Part shown: one piece after another, positions 2,658 to 57,515 of the stretch
Numbering within the stretch: position 1 is the first letter of the stretch
How the letters are laid out: the number at the start of each line of letters is the position of its first letter
NCBI RefSeq assembly: GCF_014199205.1
Contig: NZ_JACIJD010000002.1
Span: 1-64,000 of the forward strand
DNA from: Muricoccus pecuniae
Lineage (GTDB): Bacteria; Pseudomonadota; Alphaproteobacteria; Acetobacterales; Acetobacteraceae
Length of the DNA: 64,000 nt
Reading direction: 5' to 3'
Position numbers and translations under genes: made by a program
The notes under the pieces: generated by a model
Seen by the model: the letters and a program-made list of their open reading frames with translations, nothing else
The model's database searches: none
What the model was told of the DNA's origin: nothing

Positions 2658-4169
2658 ATGAGCCTGATCGCTCATGGCGCATTCGCGCCGAGCCTGCGCG
2701 CGGCGAGCGCGTCCGGCCTGCACGCGGTGAGTGCGCCCGGCCTGCGCCGAGGCGCGCGGGCCCTGGCCGTGATGTCGGTGGTGGCGGCGCTGGCGGCCTG
2801 TGGCAGCCAGCCCCAGACCGGCCCGACCACCAGCTACCGCTCCGCCGCTTCCAACCGACCGGCCAGCTACGATCCGCCCGGTCCCTCCTCCGATCCCTGG
2901 GGCCCCTATATCCGCGAGGCCTCGGGCCGCTTCGACGTGCCGGAGCGCTGGATTCGCGAGGTGATGCGCCAGGAGAGCGGCGGCCGCCTCAGCGCCACCT
3001 CCCGCGTCGGGGCGATGGGGCTGCTGCAGCTCATGCCCGGCACCTATTCCGAGCTGAATGCCAGGCACGGGCTGGGGGACGACCCCTACCACCCCTGGTC
3101 GAACATCATGGCCGGCACGGCCTATATCCGCGAGATGTACGACCTCTACGGCTCGCCGGGCTTCCTCGCGGCCTATAACGGCGGCCCGAAGCGCCTGGAG
3201 AACTATCTCTGGGCCGGTGGCCGCATGCCGGAGGAGACGCGCAACTACGTCGCCCGCATTGGCCCGCGCATCCAGGGCGCGCATCCCAGCCGCCGCGCGC
3301 CGGACGAGGTCTACGCCGCCGCCGATATCGGCCTGAACCCGCCGTCCCGCCGGACGGGCGATCCGGGCACCATGCTCGCCCTGCGCGAGCAGCGTCGCGC
3401 CGTGGACCCCGGCATCCAGCCCGTGCAGCTCGCCGGCACCGTCATCCGCATGGAGCCGATCCCGGACGGCTCGACCTATGCCGAGTCCTCTGCGCCCGCG
3501 CCGGTGCCGGCCCAGCCGCAGCTCGCCCAGACGCAGCTCGCCTCGCTCGGCCCCAACGTCATCCGCATGGAGCCGATCCCCGACGGCTCCACCTACTCGC
3601 GCGAGCCCGCGCCTGTCGTGGTTTCGCGGATGGACCCCATCCCCGATGGCTCCACCTACTCGCGGGAGCCCGCGCCGGTGGTGGTGTCGCGGATGGAGCT
3701 GATCCCCAACCCGCCCACCCCCGCCGCGGCCCCGATGTCCCCGCCCTCGCGCCCCTTCGCCGTCGCACAGGCCGAGGCGCGCCCCTCCGCGCCCGAGCGC
3801 CCGGCGCAGCGCGGCTTCTTCCTCGTTCCCCCGGCGCAGGCCGGCACGCTCCCGGCTCCGGTGGCGCGGCAGAACGGCATGCCCCCGGGCGTGATGCGCG
3901 CCGGCGTTCCCTCCGCTCCCGCGGCTTCCGGCAGCTGGGCGATCCAGGTCGGGGCCTTCGCGAGCGAGAATCTGGCGCGCGACGCCGCCGGCCAGGCGCG
4001 GAGCGGCGCCGGGAACGGCAGCCTCTCCGTCACCCCCGTCGCGCAGGGCCGTGGCACGCTGTACCGCGCGCGGGTCACTGGCCTCTCGCGCGACGCGGCG
4101 CAGAGCGCCTGCGACCGCCTGCGCGCGCGCGGCAGTTGCATGGTGATCTCGCCCGACGCGCAGGGCTGA
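2658..4169 (+). CDS. Lipoprotein lytic transglycosylase with C-terminal SPOR domain
   Basis: A 503-residue envelope enzyme predicted to cleave peptidoglycan glycan strands. The lipobox LAAC puts the lipidated Cys at residue 48 after an unusually long n-region. The SLT domain covers about residues 85-205, with the catalytic Glu at residue 106 in MRQESGG, plus GAMGLLQLMP and AAYNGG motifs. A Pro-rich linker (about 215-410) carries repeated RMEPIPDGSTY motifs. The last 80 residues (from GSWAIQVGAFAS) form a SPOR domain that binds denuded glycan at division sites. The ATG at 2658 is preceded closely by GAGGGGG. The layout resembles RlpA/MltC-type septal enzymes, but the repeat linker is distinctive. 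Confidence 0.85.
   Translation: MSLIAHGAFAPSLRAASASGLHAVSAPGLRRGARALAVMSVVAALAACGSQPQTGPTTSYRSAASNRPASYDPPGPSSDPWGPYIREASGRFDVPERWIREVMRQESGGRLSATSRVGAMGLLQLMPGTYSELNARHGLGDDPYHPWSNIMAGTAYIREMYDLYGSPGFLAAYNGGPKRLENYLWAGGRMPEETRNYVARIGPRIQGAHPSRRAPDEVYAAADIGLNPPSRRTGDPGTMLALREQRRAVDPGIQPVQLAGTVIRMEPIPDGSTYAESSAPAPVPAQPQLAQTQLASLGPNVIRMEPIPDGSTYSREPAPVVVSRMDPIPDGSTYSREPAPVVVSRMELIPNPPTPAAAPMSPPSRPFAVAQAEARPSAPERPAQRGFFLVPPAQAGTLPAPVARQNGMPPGVMRAGVPSAPAASGSWAIQVGAFASENLARDAAGQARSGAGNGSLSVTPVAQGRGTLYRARVTGLSRDAAQSACDRLRARGSCMVISPDAQG
3441..3710 (+). repeat. In-frame repeats in the transglycosylase linker
   Basis: The motif RM(E/D)PIPDGSTY occurs three times, followed by a degenerate RMELIPNP copy. 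The second and third form a near-exact 63-bp (21-residue) tandem unit, 3564-3626 and 3627-3689, that also contains SREPAPVVVS. This looks like recent in-frame duplication of a linker segment. Confidence 0.8.
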
Positions 4170-5089: not shown

Positions 5090-5890
5090 TCAGAAGGCGG
5101 GGACGACGGAGCCCTGGAACGTGGCCTGGACGAAGTTCTTCACCTCGTCATTCTGATAGGCCGCGAGCAGGCGCCGCACCCAGGGGGCGTCCCGGTCCGG
5201 CTGCCGCACGACGATGAGGTTGGCATAGGGGCTGTCCGCCCCCTCGATGGCGATGGCGTCCCGAACGGGGTTCAGCCCGGCATTGATGGCGTAGTTCGTG
5301 TTGATCGCGGCCAGTTCCACCTCTTCCAGCGCGCGGGGGAGCTGCGCGGCCTCCAGCTCCACCACGCGGATGCGGCGGGGGTTGGCGGTGATGTCGGCCA
5401 CCGAGGCGGTGTGGTCGGCGCCCTCCTTCAAGCCGAAGAGCCCGGCCCTGGCCAGCAGCACGAGGGCGCGCCCGCCATTGCTTGGGTCGTTCGGGACCGC
5501 CACGCGGGCGCCGGCCGGCACCTCGCCCGGCGCCTTGTGGCGGCGGGAGTAGAGGCCCATCGGGAAGATCATGGTCTTGCCGACGGAGACCAGCGGCAGC
5601 CGCCGGTCCCGCACCGCCGCGTCCAGGAAGGGCTGGTGCTGGTAGGAGTTGGCGTCGAGGTCCCCGGCGGCGAGGGCCGCGTTGGGCTGGATGTAGTCGG
5701 TGAACTCGACGATGCGGAGGACGAGCCCGTCCCGTGCCGCGATCTCGCGCACCTTCTCCATCGTCTGGGCATGCGGCCCGGCGGTGACGCCGATGCGGAG
5801 CGGGCGCGCGGCCGTTCCGATATCCTGCGCTAGGGCGGCGGCGGGGGCGAGGGCGGCGAGGGCCGCGAGGGAACGGCGTGTGACGGGCAT
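5090..5890 (-). CDS. metQ: MetQ/NlpA-family methionine ABC transporter substrate-binding protein (copy 1)
   Basis: A 266-residue secreted binding protein whose Ala-rich signal peptide ends near AALAQ (about residue 22). It carries the same motif set as its neighbour: YIQPNAALAAGDLDANSYQH, VAVPNDPSNGGRAL and INTNYAINAG. It follows metI by 17 bp. The ATG at 5890 was chosen because signal-peptide features begin there; the longer open frame upstream runs antisense to no real gene but overlaps metI. Together with MetI and MetN it should form a complete importer for methionine or a related amino acid. Confidence 0.87.
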   Translation of the reverse strand: MPVTRRSLAALAALAPAAALAQDIGTAARPLRIGVTAGPHAQTMEKVREIAARDGLVLRIVEFTDYIQPNAALAAGDLDANSYQHQPFLDAAVRDRRLPLVSVGKTMIFPMGLYSRRHKAPGEVPAGARVAVPNDPSNGGRALVLLARAGLFGLKEGADHTASVADITANPRRIRVVELEAAQLPRALEEVELAAINTNYAINAGLNPVRDAIAIEGADSPYANLIVVRQPDRDAPWVRRLLAAYQNDEVKNFVQATFQGSVVPAF

Positions 5891-5907
5891 TGTTCTTCTC
5901 CCAGATG

Positions 5908-6573
5908 TCAGCGCCGGCTGAAGCGCCGGACGAGGAGGTCGCCCAGGGATTGCAGCCCCTGAACAAAGATGATGAGGATCAGCACGACGGTGGCCATCAC
6001 CTCCGGCATGAAGCGCTGGTAGCCGAAGCGGATGCCGAGATCGCCCAGCCCGCCGCCGCCGATCGCCCCCGCCATGGCGGAGTAGCCGACCAGCCCGACG
6101 AGGGTGACGGTGATGGCCGCGATGATGCCGGGCAGGGCCTCGGGCACCAGCACGCGCGTCATGATCTGGGTGCGGGTGGCGCCCATGGCGCGGGCGGCCT
6201 CGATCACGCCGCGGTCCACCTCGCGCAGCGCGTTCTCGAAGAGGCGCACGATGAAGGCGGTGGCGGCCAGGGACAGCGGCACGAGCGCCGCCGTGGTCCC
6301 GATGGAGGTACCGGCCACCAGCCGCGTGAAGGGCACGATCGCCACCATCAGGATGATGAAGGGCGTGGAGCGGATGGCGTTCACCAGCAGCCCGATCGGC
6401 CGGTTGACCCAGCCGTTCGGGGCCAGGCCGCCTGGCGCGGTGGTGTGCAGCAGCAGGGCGAGCGGCAGGCCGAGGGCGATCGCGACCACGGCGCCGCCGA
6501 AGGTCATCAGCAGGGTCTGCCAGGCGGCCTCGATCAGGAGGTCCGTCAGCGCGGGCGGCAGCCAGGGGATCAT
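5908..6573 (-). CDS. metI: Methionine ABC transporter permease
   Basis: A 221-residue inner-membrane permease with about five transmembrane segments. The EAA-type cytoplasmic loop is visible as AARAMGATRTQIMTRVLVPEA, contacting the ATPase; GYSAMAGAIGGGGLGDLGIR is the conserved MetI late-helix region. Length and motifs match MetI. Its ATG overlaps the metN stop by 4 bp (ATGA at 6570-6573), implying coupled translation. Confidence 0.92.
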   Translation of the reverse strand: MIPWLPPALTDLLIEAAWQTLLMTFGGAVVAIALGLPLALLLHTTAPGGLAPNGWVNRPIGLLVNAIRSTPFIILMVAIVPFTRLVAGTSIGTTAALVPLSLAATAFIVRLFENALREVDRGVIEAARAMGATRTQIMTRVLVPEALPGIIAAITVTLVGLVGYSAMAGAIGGGGLGDLGIRFGYQRFMPEVMATVVLILIIFVQGLQSLGDLLVRRFSRR

Positions 6574-7634
6574 GCCGGGTCCTCCCCGATCTCGGTGACG
6601 TCGAGGCCCAAGGCCCGCATCCAGGCCGTGGCCTCCGCGATGGCGGCGGGCGGGCCATAGGCGGCGAGCGCCATGAGGCCGTAGGGTTCCGCCCCGATCG
6701 CGTCGATGCGGCCGGAGACGATGTTCAGGTCCAGCCCGTAGCGGCGGGAGGCCTCGCTGACCACGGCACGGGTGGAGGAGGGACCGGCGAAGAGCACCTG
6801 CAGGAGCCGCCGCTCCTCCCCCGGATTCGCGTCGGGCAGGCGGGCCACCGTGCCGGGCGGCACGACATGGCCGATCACCTCGGAGACGAAGCGGCGGGTG
6901 GTGGCGTGGGCGGGGCGGGTGAAGACGTCGAAGACGCGGCCCTCCTCGATCACGCGCCCGGCCTCCATCACGGCCACCCGGTCGCAGATGGCCTTCACCA
7001 CGGCCATCTCATGGGTGATCAGCAGCACCGTGAGGTCCAGCCGGTCGCGGATGGAACGGATGAGGGAGAGGATTTCCTCCGTCGTCTCGGGATCCAGCGC
7101 GCTCGTCGCCTCGTCGCAGAGGAGGATGCGGGGGCGGGAGGCGAGGGCGCGGGCGATGCCCACCCGCTGCTTCTGCCCGCCCGAGAGCTGGGCGGGGTAG
7201 TAGTCCCGCCGCTCCTCCAGCCCGACGAGCGGCAGAAGCTCGGCCACTCGCGCCTCCCGCTCGGCCTTCGGCACGCCGGCGATCTCCAGCGGGAAGGCGA
7301 TGTTGCCCGCCACGGTGCGGGCGGAGAGCAGGTTGAAGTGCTGGAACACCATGCCGATGCCCCGCCGCGCCCCGCGCAGGGCGGCCTCGTCCAGCGAGGT
7401 GATCTCCTGGCCCAGCACGGTCACGCGGCCCGAATCCGGCCGCTCCAGCAGGTTCACGCAGCGGAGCAGGGTGGATTTGCCCGCGCCCGAGCGGCCCACA
7501 ATGCCGAAGATCTCCCCCGGCGCGACCTCAAGGGAAACCCCGTCCAGCGCCCAGAGCGGCGTGCCGCGCCCGCGGAACTCGCGGGTCAGGCCGTGCAGGG
7601 ATATGGCCGGCCGCGGGCCGGGATCGTCGGGCAT
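6570..7634 (-). CDS. metN: Methionine ABC transporter ATP-binding protein with NIL domain
   Basis: A 354-residue ATPase. The nucleotide-binding domain (about residues 10-250) has Walker A GRSGAGKST, signature LSGGQKQRVGIARAL, Walker B ILLCDEATSALD and switch His in THEMAVV. The C-terminal NIL domain (about 275-354, from RRLLQVLFAG) is the regulatory domain that binds methionine and shuts down transport in MetN proteins. The ATG at 7634 is the first gene start of the operon, after a leader of about 165 nt from the predicted promoter. Upstream in-frame extension is rejected as leader sequence. Confidence 0.92.
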   Translation of the reverse strand: MPDDPGPRPAISLHGLTREFRGRGTPLWALDGVSLEVAPGEIFGIVGRSGAGKSTLLRCVNLLERPDSGRVTVLGQEITSLDEAALRGARRGIGMVFQHFNLLSARTVAGNIAFPLEIAGVPKAEREARVAELLPLVGLEERRDYYPAQLSGGQKQRVGIARALASRPRILLCDEATSALDPETTEEILSLIRSIRDRLDLTVLLITHEMAVVKAICDRVAVMEAGRVIEEGRVFDVFTRPAHATTRRFVSEVIGHVVPPGTVARLPDANPGEERRLLQVLFAGPSSTRAVVSEASRRYGLDLNIVSGRIDAIGAEPYGLMALAAYGPPAAIAEATAWMRALGLDVTEIGEDPA

Positions 7635-40430: not shown

Positions 40431-40449
40431 CCGCCGGGGATGAATGATT

Positions 40450-40471
40450 CGCCCGGCCAGCATGCCGGGCG
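40450..40471 (+). promoter_or_regulatory. Hairpin in the 5' leader of the H-NS-like gene
   Basis: CGCCCGGC and GCCGGGCG form a perfect 8-bp stem with a CAGCAT loop, ending 38 nt before the start codon. Without a U-run it is more likely a leader structure than a terminator. Confidence 0.4.
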
Positions 40472-40509
40472 TTCCGACCCTCAAGACGTTATATCAGGGA
40501 TTAGCCGAC

Positions 40510-40890
40510 ATGCCCGAGGCACACGAATCCTCCCAGAAGCGCAAGGCCGCTTTCGACCTGGATTCCATGACGGCGCAGGAACTGACCGCGTTGATCGAGG
40601 CCGCTGAGGCGAAGCGGTCGCAAAAGCAGGACGAAGCCCGGACCGCGCTGATCGAGGAATTTCGGAACAAGGCCGCTCAGCTCGGCCTGGAACTGGAGGC
40701 CCTGCTTCCGGCCGGCATCACCCCGCCGAGCGCAACGCCGTCCCGCCGCACCCGGCGGGATGCCGGTGGCACCGTCGCGGCGCGTTTTCGTGGGCCGAAT
40801 GGCGAAACCTGGAGTGGGCGCGGTCGCATGCCGAAGTGGCTCTCTGCCCAGGAAGCGCAGGGCCACAAGCGCGACGAATTCCGTATCTGA
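40510..40890 (+). CDS. H-NS-family nucleoid protein
   Basis: A 126-residue DNA-binding protein. An N-terminal coiled-coil oligomerisation part (about 10-60, DLDSMTAQELTALIEAAEAK) is followed by a basic linker and the C-terminal DNA-binding domain ARFRGPNGETWSGRGRMPKW, the R-G-R/P-W core of the H-NS/MvaT-like histone family. Such proteins coat AT-rich, often horizontally acquired DNA. The coding region and its flanks look less GC-biased than the neighbours. AGGGA lies about 9 nt before the ATG. An upstream in-frame ATG at 40444 lies before the leader hairpin and is less likely. Confidence 0.85.
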   Translation: MPEAHESSQKRKAAFDLDSMTAQELTALIEAAEAKRSQKQDEARTALIEEFRNKAAQLGLELEALLPAGITPPSATPSRRTRRDAGGTVAARFRGPNGETWSGRGRMPKWLSAQEAQGHKRDEFRI

Positions 40891-55649: not shown

Positions 55650-55710
55650 CGCTGCCGAAACCCTGGGGATTCGCGCGGCGTTCGTCAGCGATCTCACGGA
55701 GGATCGCGGC

Positions 55711-56523
55711 ATGGCGTCCGGCACGGCGAAGAGGACCGACCCGAAGCTCTGGGACAAGGTGAAGGCGCGCGTCATGCGCGGCACCAAGGGCGGCGACGCC
55801 GGCGAGTGGTCGGCGCGCAAGGCGCAGCTCGCCGTGCAGGAGTACAAGAAGGCGGGCGGGGGCTACGAGGGTGGCAAGAAGGAGGACAACCACCTCGTCC
55901 AGTGGGAGAAGGAGGAGTGGGGCACCAAGTCCGGCCGCAAGAGCAAGGACACCGGCGAGCGCTATCTCCCCCGCAAGGCGCGGGAGTCGTTGAGCGACGA
56001 GGAGTACGCCCGCACCACGGCCAGCAAGCGGCGCGACACGGCCAAGGGCGAGCAGTTCTCCCGCCAGCCGGCGGATGTGGCGCGCAAGACGGCGAAGGCG
56101 CGGGACACCGGCCGTTCCGCGCCTGCCAGTCGCGCGGGCAAGACTCAGAAGGAGCCTGCCGCGCCGCCCCGCGCGCGCGGGGCGGCGAAGACGAAGACAT
56201 CGCGCACGGCCTCGACGACCGCGCGTAAGGCGCCGCCCCGGCGCGCCGCCGCGGCCAAGGCGTCCCCGGCCCGCAAGGCATCCCCGGCGGCCAAGGCGCC
56301 CGCCAAGTCCGCCGCCGCGCGCAAGCCCGCCGCGGCACCGGCCGGGCGCAAGGCAGCGCCAGCCCGACGGGCGGCGCCGGCCGCCGGAACCGGCGCGAAG
56401 CCGGCCACGAGGAAGGCAGCCACGAAGAAGCCGGCGGCCGCGAAGCCTGCGGCACGCCGTTCCTCCTCCACCCCGGCCGCGCGCGGCACGCGCCCTGCCT
56501 CGCCGAGGACGAAGCGCCCATGA
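55711..56523 (+). CDS. DUF5872 protein with histone-H1-like basic tail
   Basis: A 270-residue basic protein. The N-terminal domain (about 1-125) resembles DUF5872: TDPKLWDKVKARVMRGTKGG, SARKAQLAVQEYKKAGGGYE, VQWEKEEWGTKSGRKS and LPRKARESLSDEEYARTTA. From about residue 128 it is a Lys/Ala/Arg/Pro-rich tail with dozens of KA, AK and RKA words, like bacterial histone-H1 proteins (HctB/AlgP-type), expected to bind DNA or RNA. GGAGG lies about 8 nt before the ATG. Its stop overlaps the next start by 4 bp. Confidence 0.82.
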   Translation: MASGTAKRTDPKLWDKVKARVMRGTKGGDAGEWSARKAQLAVQEYKKAGGGYEGGKKEDNHLVQWEKEEWGTKSGRKSKDTGERYLPRKARESLSDEEYARTTASKRRDTAKGEQFSRQPADVARKTAKARDTGRSAPASRAGKTQKEPAAPPRARGAAKTKTSRTASTTARKAPPRRAAAAKASPARKASPAAKAPAKSAAARKPAAAPAGRKAAPARRAAPAAGTGAKPATRKAATKKPAAAKPAARRSSSTPAARGTRPASPRTKRP

Positions 56524-57515
56524 CGGAGACGGACGACCCCCGGGAGATCCTCGGCGCTTTCCGCGAGGCGGTGAATATGTCCGCCTCGGCGCTCAAGGAG
56601 TGGCTCGGCACCGAGGAGAGCCGCTCGGTCGGCATCACGCCGGAGGGCGAGCACGAGTCCATTGGGCATGAGAGCGGGGTGCATATCGTGCGGCTGCTCG
56701 AGGCCGGGCTCTCGGATCCCTCTGAGGAGGATCTGGCGCATATGCGGAAGGTGGTGGGCTACGTGCACCGCCATCTCGCCCAGCGGCCCGAAGGCGATGT
56801 CGAGCACACGCGCTGGCGCTACAGCCTGATGAACTGGGGCCATGATCCCCTGAAGGACGCCGCCCCCGCGAAGCCGGCCCGCGCCAGGCGCGCGCCTGCC
56901 CCGGCGCGCGGGACGGGGGCGGCACGCGCGACGGTGACGCGGCGGACGGCTCGCGAGGCGCCGGAGCCGGCCCCGCGCAAGGCGGTCGCGAGAACCGGGC
57001 GCAAGCCTGCCGGAACGGCGGCACGCAAGCCGGCGGCCCCGTCCGCGCGCTCGGTGGCGGAGCCCGCGGCGGCGCGCAAGGCACCCGGGAAGGAGCCGGC
57101 GGGGGCTGCCGGGCGCGGCGGCGCTGCCTCCTCCGGTCGCCGCGCAGCGAAGAGCGGCGCGGCCGGAACGGCGGCACGCAAGGCGGCGGGGACGGGCAAG
57201 CCGGCGGCTCCCGGCAAGGCCAAGGGCCGTCCTGCCGCGGCCAGGCCTGCCGCCAAGTCCGCGACGGCCCGCAAGGCCCCAGCGAAGGCCCCGGCCAGCA
57301 AGGCCACCACGAAGGCCCCGGTCCGTAAGGCCCCTGCGAAGGCTCCGGCCCGCAAGGCCCCCGCGAAGGCTCCGGCCCGCAAGGCCAAGGATGCGGCAGC
57401 CCCCGCGAAGGGAGCGGGTGGCCGCACAGCCGCCGCCAAACCCGCCCCGCGGTCCTCGTCGGCCCACAAGGCACCCTCCGCCCGCCGCCCCACATCTGGA
57501 ACGCCGCGTCGCTGA
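56520..57515 (+). CDS. DUF3140 protein with histone-H1-like basic tail
   Basis: A 331-residue protein. The N-terminal domain (about 1-117) resembles DUF3140: FREAVNMSASALKEWLGTEE, HESIGHESGVHIVRLLEAG, AHMRKVVGYVHRHLAQRPEG and TRWRYSLMNWGHDPLKD. The rest is a long Lys/Ala/Pro/Arg tail ending in four 9-residue repeats. No enzymatic motif is known for the domain. Coupled translation with the DUF5872 gene and the shared tail type suggest that both act on the same nucleic-acid or nucleoid target. Confidence 0.82.
   Translation: MTETDDPREILGAFREAVNMSASALKEWLGTEESRSVGITPEGEHESIGHESGVHIVRLLEAGLSDPSEEDLAHMRKVVGYVHRHLAQRPEGDVEHTRWRYSLMNWGHDPLKDAAPAKPARARRAPAPARGTGAARATVTRRTAREAPEPAPRKAVARTGRKPAGTAARKPAAPSARSVAEPAAARKAPGKEPAGAAGRGGAASSGRRAAKSGAAGTAARKAAGTGKPAAPGKAKGRPAAARPAAKSATARKAPAKAPASKATTKAPVRKAPAKAPARKAPAKAPARKAKDAAAPAKGAGGRTAAAKPAPRSSSAHKAPSARRPTSGTPRR
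57282..57389 (+). repeat. Four in-frame 27-bp repeats in the DUF3140 gene
   Basis: Four consecutive units encode AKAPASKAT, TKAPVRKAP, AKAPARKAP and AKAPARKAK. The last two units are identical at DNA level over the first 24 bases, indicating recent unit duplication. Confidence 0.9.

Follow-up and report, generated by a model that had tools for sequence, protein, structure and literature searches.

A DUF5872-DUF3140 gene pair with histone H1-like tails as a candidate stress-response module of Alphaproteobacteria

In a stretch of 64,000 nucleotides from the genome of Muricoccus pecuniae (64 kb, hereafter the window), two adjoining genes encode members of Pfam families DUF5872 and DUF3140, neither of which has an assigned function, and comparison across genomes indicates that the two families are joined into one previously undescribed module. 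A functional link between DUF5872 and DUF3140 is strongly supported by overlapping genes, gene fusions, co-occurrence in genomes and a shared promoter type, and the pair seems to be induced by the general stress response. Two unknown families would thus become one testable stress-response module that spans Alphaproteobacteria and recurs as a pair in Pseudomonas, and the module predicts a partner, a mode of regulation and a type of target for both families.

The preliminary description of this DNA had reported two tandem reading frames that overlap at ATGA and that each end in a tail rich in Lys, Arg, Ala and Pro. This arrangement was reproduced to the exact coordinate, with gene A running from ATG 55711 to a stop codon at 56521-56523 and gene B from ATG 56520 to a stop codon at 57513-57515. 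The features of the locus are as follows.

55657..55682, + strand: variant of the EcfG-type promoter, GAAACC-N16-CGTT, 54 nt 5' of the gene A ATG (motif match)
55698..55702, + strand: ribosome-binding site GGAGG, 8 nt 5' of ATG 55711 (sequence)
55711..56523, + strand: gene A, 270 aa, DUF5872 domain and basic H1-like tail (domain profile, composition)
55711..56106, + strand: DUF5872 domain, aa 1-132, net charge +12 (profile and all-alpha model)
56107..56520, + strand: gene A tail, 138 aa, net charge +36, at the position of the relatives' Rho_N domain (composition)
56520..56523, + strand: ATGA stop/start overlap, predicted translational coupling (sequence)
56520..57515, + strand: gene B, 331 aa, DUF3140 domain and basic H1-like tail (domain profile, composition)
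56520..56855, + strand: DUF3140 domain, aa 1-112, net charge -9 (profile and six-helix model)
56856..57512, + strand: gene B tail, 219 aa, net charge +49, with RKAPAKAPA repeats inside (composition)

The position of GGAGG supports ATG 55711 rather than GTG 55603 as the start of gene A. Both tails have nearly the same composition (26% Lys+Arg, 35% Ala and 14% Pro over 138 aa in gene A; 25%, 35% and 14% over 219 aa in gene B), and among the 54 predicted genes of the window these two alone have a Lys/Arg-rich segment combined with Ala, Pro, Gly, Thr and Ser. Neither a sigma-70 promoter nor a terminator rose above chance level at the locus. Gene order and sequence similarity (82-87% identity in DUF5872) place this genome close to Roseomonas/Pararoseomonas (Acetobacteraceae). 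A small gene at about 40444-40887 of the window, also named in the preliminary description, is H-NS-like by appearance; no tie between it and the DUF5872-DUF3140 pair was found.

Gene B is a member of PF11338 (DUF3140), with an E value of 1.8e-32 and 112 bits against a cut-off of 25 in a Pfam scan; most members seen stop at an NWGHDP motif, whereas those of the window's clade are tailed. Residues 1-100 of gene A match PF19197 (DUF5872) with 32.7 bits, above the cut-off of 27.5, and its N-terminal 130 residues match PHROG 14910 with an E value of 4e-27. Pfam reported no PF19197 match for full-length gene A, probably because of the composition bias of the tail. The profile score thus places gene A in a family that spans giant viruses, phages and bacteria, in which viral forms are a single domain and bacterial forms also have a Rho_N domain or basic tail, frequently together with DUF3140 as a partner. 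Since most bacterial members escape the Pfam DUF5872 profile when genomes are searched, we used a home-made profile, A1, and excluded from the DUF5872 counts those A1 matches that cover the Rho_N end alone (E around 1e-4). In genes A and B Pfam gives DUF5872 and DUF3140 alone: no phasin or granule domain, no winged-helix or other named histone domain (linker histone or HC1 type) and, in gene A, no Rho_N domain, though relatives carry one. Judging from the sequences, the likeness of the tails to histone H1 is one of composition alone.

Confident AlphaFold models were obtained for both domains from alignments of 78 (DUF5872) and 35 (DUF3140) sequences. The DUF5872 model is all-alpha (pLDDT 86.6), with a pTM of just 0.54 that makes the arrangement of its helices less certain, and the DUF3140 model is a six-helix fold (pLDDT 93.4, pTM 0.85). 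Searches of the PDB by sequence and structure gave no clear solved-structure match for either domain (Foldseek E >3 in each case; best VIA Z scores of 3.5 and 3.0), an absence that is no proof of a new fold. Conservation is far stronger in the folded domains than in the arms attached to them, and the domains' opposite net charges are compatible with direct contact. In the DUF3140 alignment, His50, Arg84, His108 and Asp109 are invariant besides Trp and Gly in a domain that is otherwise variable, and they could form a ligand or metal site.

We scanned 84,980 species genomes, which yielded 451 DUF5872 relatives, and examined the loci of 80. In Acetobacteraceae (including Roseomonas), Rhodospirillaceae, Aurantimonadaceae, Beijerinckiaceae and Pseudomonas (oryzihabitans, matsuisoli), DUF5872 is the gene immediately upstream of DUF3140; the pair was also seen in Mangrovicella and Stutzerimonas. 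An exact 4-nt overlap, ATGA or GTGA, is present in 21 of the 32 non-fused pairs and is kept as far as Pseudomonas. Five Roseomonas-type relatives also have the pair with domain and tail, one of them with the gene A tail only; given these relatives and the frequency of the overlap, the arrangement is not due to chance. In three loci the two domains form a single reading frame. The fusions in L006 and L011 are followed by a basic tail (322 and 351 aa, respectively), and that in Roseococcus L070 has hardly any linker, no tail and no Rho_N. Because L006 and L011 fall among the Rho_N-bearing pairs on the tree (97/99 support) and L070 with the Roseomonas clade, there were at least two fusion events. 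The fused frame of L006 still contains the start codon of DUF3140, so a separate product is possible there. Decaying pairs were also seen, with DUF5872 truncated in L010 (G112) and DUF3140 frameshifted in L014 (G049).

The two families also keep company when their genes are apart. Of 120 Acetobacteraceae genomes, 14 carry DUF3140 and 13 a full DUF5872; 10 genomes have both, 3 DUF5872 only, 4 DUF3140 only and 103 neither (Fisher p 2e-9), and in most of those with both, DUF5872 is immediately 5' of DUF3140. Methylobacterium, Sphingomonas and Aureimonas have DUF5872 genes with no adjoining DUF3140. DUF3140 is found elsewhere in 32 of the 40 genomes whose DUF5872 lacks a DUF3140 neighbour, against a background of 2/337 genomes in a class-wide sample. 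Testing within Sphingomonas alone removes much of the effect of kinship, and there DUF3140 occurs, at a distance from DUF5872, in 32/37 genomes with DUF5872 and in 38/164 others (p 8e-13; both 32, DUF5872 only 5, DUF3140 only 38, neither 126). The dependence is one-sided: DUF5872 is rarely without DUF3140, and DUF3140 is often alone (the 38 Sphingomonas genomes and also G102, G021 and G088). Roseomonas L055 and L056 have DUF5872 without DUF3140, and neither gene is strictly required for persistence of the other.

Regarding regulation, the upstream regions of 85 bacterial DUF5872 genes were searched without supervision for pairs of spaced tetramers, and the search ranked GAAC-N17-GTTG first, with 20 genes, compared with 8-11 genes for the best dyads in shuffled controls; GGAA-N18-GTTG, CAAC-N17-CGTT and AACC-N16-CGTT ranked next. 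We identify this dyad as the putative EcfG promoter, which has been described as GGAAC-N16-CGTT in Sphingopyxis, where AAC is nearly invariant, GCAAC is the second commonest -35 box and the -10 box is flexible (PMC7083833), and as GGAAC-N17-20-GTT in S. melonis (PMC6599016). We then counted GGAAC-N16/17-NGTT within 150 bp upstream, taking other genes of the same loci as controls. The motif precedes 36/66 alphaproteobacterial DUF5872 genes versus 18/1261 control genes (p 8e-39) and 11/35 unlinked DUF3140 genes versus the same controls (p 3e-11); the contrast is conservative because the control genes include a few shadows of the same promoters, and the p values, which overstate independence because close relatives (many Methylobacterium) are counted, are to be read as strong rather than literal. 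Upstream of the Pseudomonas genes the GGAAC-type motif is absent, and to our knowledge Pseudomonas has no EcfG.

In the window, GAAACC-N16-CGTT is the sole match to G[GCA]AACC-N16-CGTT on both strands of the 64 kb; its -35 box, GAAACC, is a variant one mismatch away from the GGAAC type. Roseomonas relatives have GCAACC-N16-CGTT at the same place, with a diverged spacer sequence. The window's genome (locus L222) has genes for a PhyR-like protein, an ECF sigma factor, NepR and an HWE-type kinase side by side, in what looks like a complete PhyR-NepR-EcfG locus. The sigma factor, PhyR-like and HWE-kinase-like frames were identified by eye, and the NepR profile match (E 1e-4, 25.1 bits) is slightly below the cut-off of 25.7. 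The likeness to the EcfG (PhyR-NepR) regulon comprises the promoter motif, a site within 100 bp of the start and the regulator locus in the genome. The S. melonis EcfG regulon includes Ku and topoisomerase IB, and around 40% of it is without assigned function (PMC6599016); DUF5872 and DUF3140 are not found by name in the main text of the two regulon papers (PMC6599016, PMC7083833). The published S. melonis promoter sequence had no match among 295 Sphingomonas genomes. The PhyR-NepR-EcfG locus of the window's genome also has GCAACC-N16-CGTT 60 bp upstream of a gene whose product looks ElaB/YqjD-like.

The arms of the two proteins differ between clades. In most pairs from other clades than the window's, the C-terminal part of DUF5872 is a Rho_N (SAP-like) domain (26.2 bits against a cut-off of 24.9) and DUF3140 has no tail after NWGHDP; in 25/25 pairs with Rho_N, DUF3140 has 0-8 residues past its domain. 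Roseomonas-type pairs have no Rho_N, and their tails are 125-159 aa with 27-32% Lys+Arg on DUF5872 and 219-279 aa (about 200-300) on DUF3140, except in L051, where DUF3140 ends at once. Pairs without Rho_N carry basic tails, with one clear exception, the L070 fusion, which has neither arm, and the tree requires at least two independent changes from the Rho_N to the Rho_N-less form. The basic tail thus looks like a substitute for another nucleic-acid-binding arm, Rho_N, and its repeated exchange would offer a natural experiment on disordered basic tails in bacteria. Solitary DUF3140 genes of Acetobacteraceae (L009, L012, L013) have long basic tails too, and the tails of L006, L011 and L013 contain GAAGRTAAAAKGGR-type repeats. 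In four Pseudomonas loci (L084, L098, L113, L128) a second protein matching a Rho_N-type profile is encoded about 6.6 kb downstream of DUF5872.

These results bear on the preliminary description in several ways. It had asked whether the two domains co-occur across genomes, which they do both linked and unlinked, and whether the overlap is conserved in relatives, which it is. The joint role it proposed gains support from the overlap, the fusions, the unlinked co-occurrence and the stress promoter, but the parallel tails on which it had based that role are clade-specific; most relatives are tailless, with DUF5872 ending in Rho_N instead, so the tails are neither the defining feature nor the basis of the pair. 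Its suggestion of a chromatin-like or stress-protective role is strengthened by the EcfG-type promoters and by the exchange of Rho_N for tail, with DNA binding itself a prediction.

No paper in the literature searched mentions DUF3140, and one mentions DUF5872, as a giant-virus gene in a table. The closest known design is that of AlgP and PhaF of Pseudomonas, in which a helical N-terminal domain is likewise followed by a long disordered Lys/Ala/Pro tail, with a link to starvation and a tail that binds DNA (PMC9239181). Unlike AlgP and PhaF, the present pair has no phasin-type domain, consists of two coupled proteins that are each tailed and has its tail in place of the Rho_N of relatives. Since it shows none of the phasin, histone or H-NS domains, the pair belongs to no named family of nucleoid-associated or tether proteins; at present the best reading of the sequences is that it works like one.

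We give an even chance to the proposal that DUF5872 and DUF3140 are subunits of one EcfG-controlled stress complex whose arms bind nucleic acid and which protects DNA or aids its repair. The general stress response would lead to synthesis of both subunits, translational coupling or fusion would keep their amounts equal, and the two domains, DUF5872 basic and DUF3140 acidic, would bind each other. The arms (ancestrally Rho_N on DUF5872, and in the window's clade a disordered Lys/Arg/Ala/Pro tail on each protein) would bind nucleic acid, most likely the chromosome and without sequence specificity, and the complex may coat, bridge or compact DNA, thereby protecting it or aiding repair in starvation, desiccation or oxidative stress. 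Computation has shown the pair, its coupling and fusions, the co-occurrence, the replacement of the arm and the stress promoters; from these we infer that the two proteins form a complex, that its target is DNA and not RNA, and that it protects or compacts rather than tethers. The H1-like tails and a few neighbouring genes for DNA enzymes speak for a DNA target, but no repair family recurred in the systematic scans of neighbours. Further points that weigh against the proposal are the ability of Rho_N domains to bind RNA, the lack of a solved structure similar to either domain, the persistence of each gene without the other, the armless L070 fusion and the variant -35 box of the window. A fuller version, which we put forward tentatively and at somewhat less than even chance, is a two-subunit stress-induced chromatin complex with two new folds, one half of it common with phages and giant viruses, in which H1-like tails repeatedly replaced the Rho_N arm while the core was kept.

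The strong conservation of the folded bodies is expected with a specific partner, and it makes a tether the strongest rival, albeit an unlikely one: the DUF5872-DUF3140 body would hold a cargo (a granule, stress enzyme or membrane site) that the Rho_N or H1-like arm ties to the nucleoid. AlgP and PhaF, with the architecture described above, tether polyphosphate and PHA granules, respectively, to the nucleoid in Pseudomonas (PMC9239181). Against a tether stand the lack of a phasin or granule domain in either protein and of a recurrent granule gene nearby in our neighbour scans. Slightly less probable is a module acting on RNA: attached to RNA or ribosomes through Rho_N or the basic tails, the pair would serve in the hibernation, storage or annealing of RNA during stress. 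Both RNA and DNA are ligands of Rho_N domains, and that of the Rho factor binds RNA; Rho_N is present on DUF5872 of the relatives, DUF5872 is Lys/Arg-rich, and disordered tails of basic residues are equally suited to RNA. However, tails of the H1-like Ala/Pro/Lys kind typify bacterial proteins that bind DNA (PMC9239181), and some neighbours encode DNA enzymes, namely topoisomerase IB (L211), radical-SAM/UdgX proteins (L212, L066) and exonuclease III (L214). The radical-SAM/UdgX and exonuclease III neighbours, together with Ku (L215) and a predicted stress regulon shared with Ku-LigD (PMC6599016, PMC7083833), would also suit a dedicated DNA-repair accessory (for example in non-homologous end joining or base damage) that is not a structural nucleoid protein; yet they are scattered and anecdotal, none recurs as a repair family systematically adjoining DUF5872 or DUF3140, and we regard this reading as improbable to the same degree as the RNA module.

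By far the least probable is that DUF5872 is a captured phage gene and DUF3140 its controller, neutralizing or redirecting it in a toxin-antitoxin-like or anti-phage role. DUF5872 is indeed common in viruses (at least 595 viral contigs, and also pelagiphages, roseophages and cyanophages), DUF3140 is absent from 80 viral DUF5872 loci and from all phage records, and the charges of the two domains are opposite (+12 and -9). But viral and bacterial DUF5872 form separate, well-supported groups on the tree, so that the bacterial genes were not captured recently; control by a stress sigma factor and the existence of fusions misfit a toxin-antitoxin pair, DUF5872 survives without DUF3140 in several genomes, and PADLOC gave no match. 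A phage origin of the pair was rejected on the absence of DUF3140 from phages and viral loci, and a defence system on the PADLOC result. The function of DUF5872 would bear on viral genomes too, since this domain is common in marine phages and present in algal giant viruses.

Operon partners besides DUF3140 were considered and rejected, as the neighbours of the 80 DUF5872 loci (blastp clusters) reflect ordinary genus synteny and scans of 89 and 98 neighbours showed no recurrent Pfam family. DUF2945 was likewise rejected as a general DUF3140 partner, being found only in L211 and L214. Streptomyces plasmid L211 carries DUF3140 and DUF2945 with a 4-nt overlap, followed by topoisomerase IB (5753-5986, 5983-6324 and 6369-7388), so DUF2945 takes the partner's place there in a like arrangement. 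A radical-SAM DNA repair/UdgX pair is divergent from DUF5872 in Alsobacter soli (L066, 7232-8575 and 8717-9856) and adjoins DUF3140 on a Caballeronia plasmid (L212, 6393-9049), and in Phaeobacter L217 DUF5872 is about 5 kb from UdgX. Exonuclease III in L214 and Ku in L215 are further isolated DNA-enzyme neighbours.

The DUF5872 model matches those of viral proteins, among them short phage proteins and the DUF5872 protein of Chrysochromulina ericina virus. The two N-terminal helices of the model are found again within large viral proteins. In Roseobacter phage CRP-13 (L220) DUF5872 is split at about residue 54-56 into two genes that overlap by 4 nt (2956-3141 and 3138-3548) and correspond to phrog_17747 and phrog_14910. 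Judging from two-piece matches, DUF5872 is also split in some pelagiphages.
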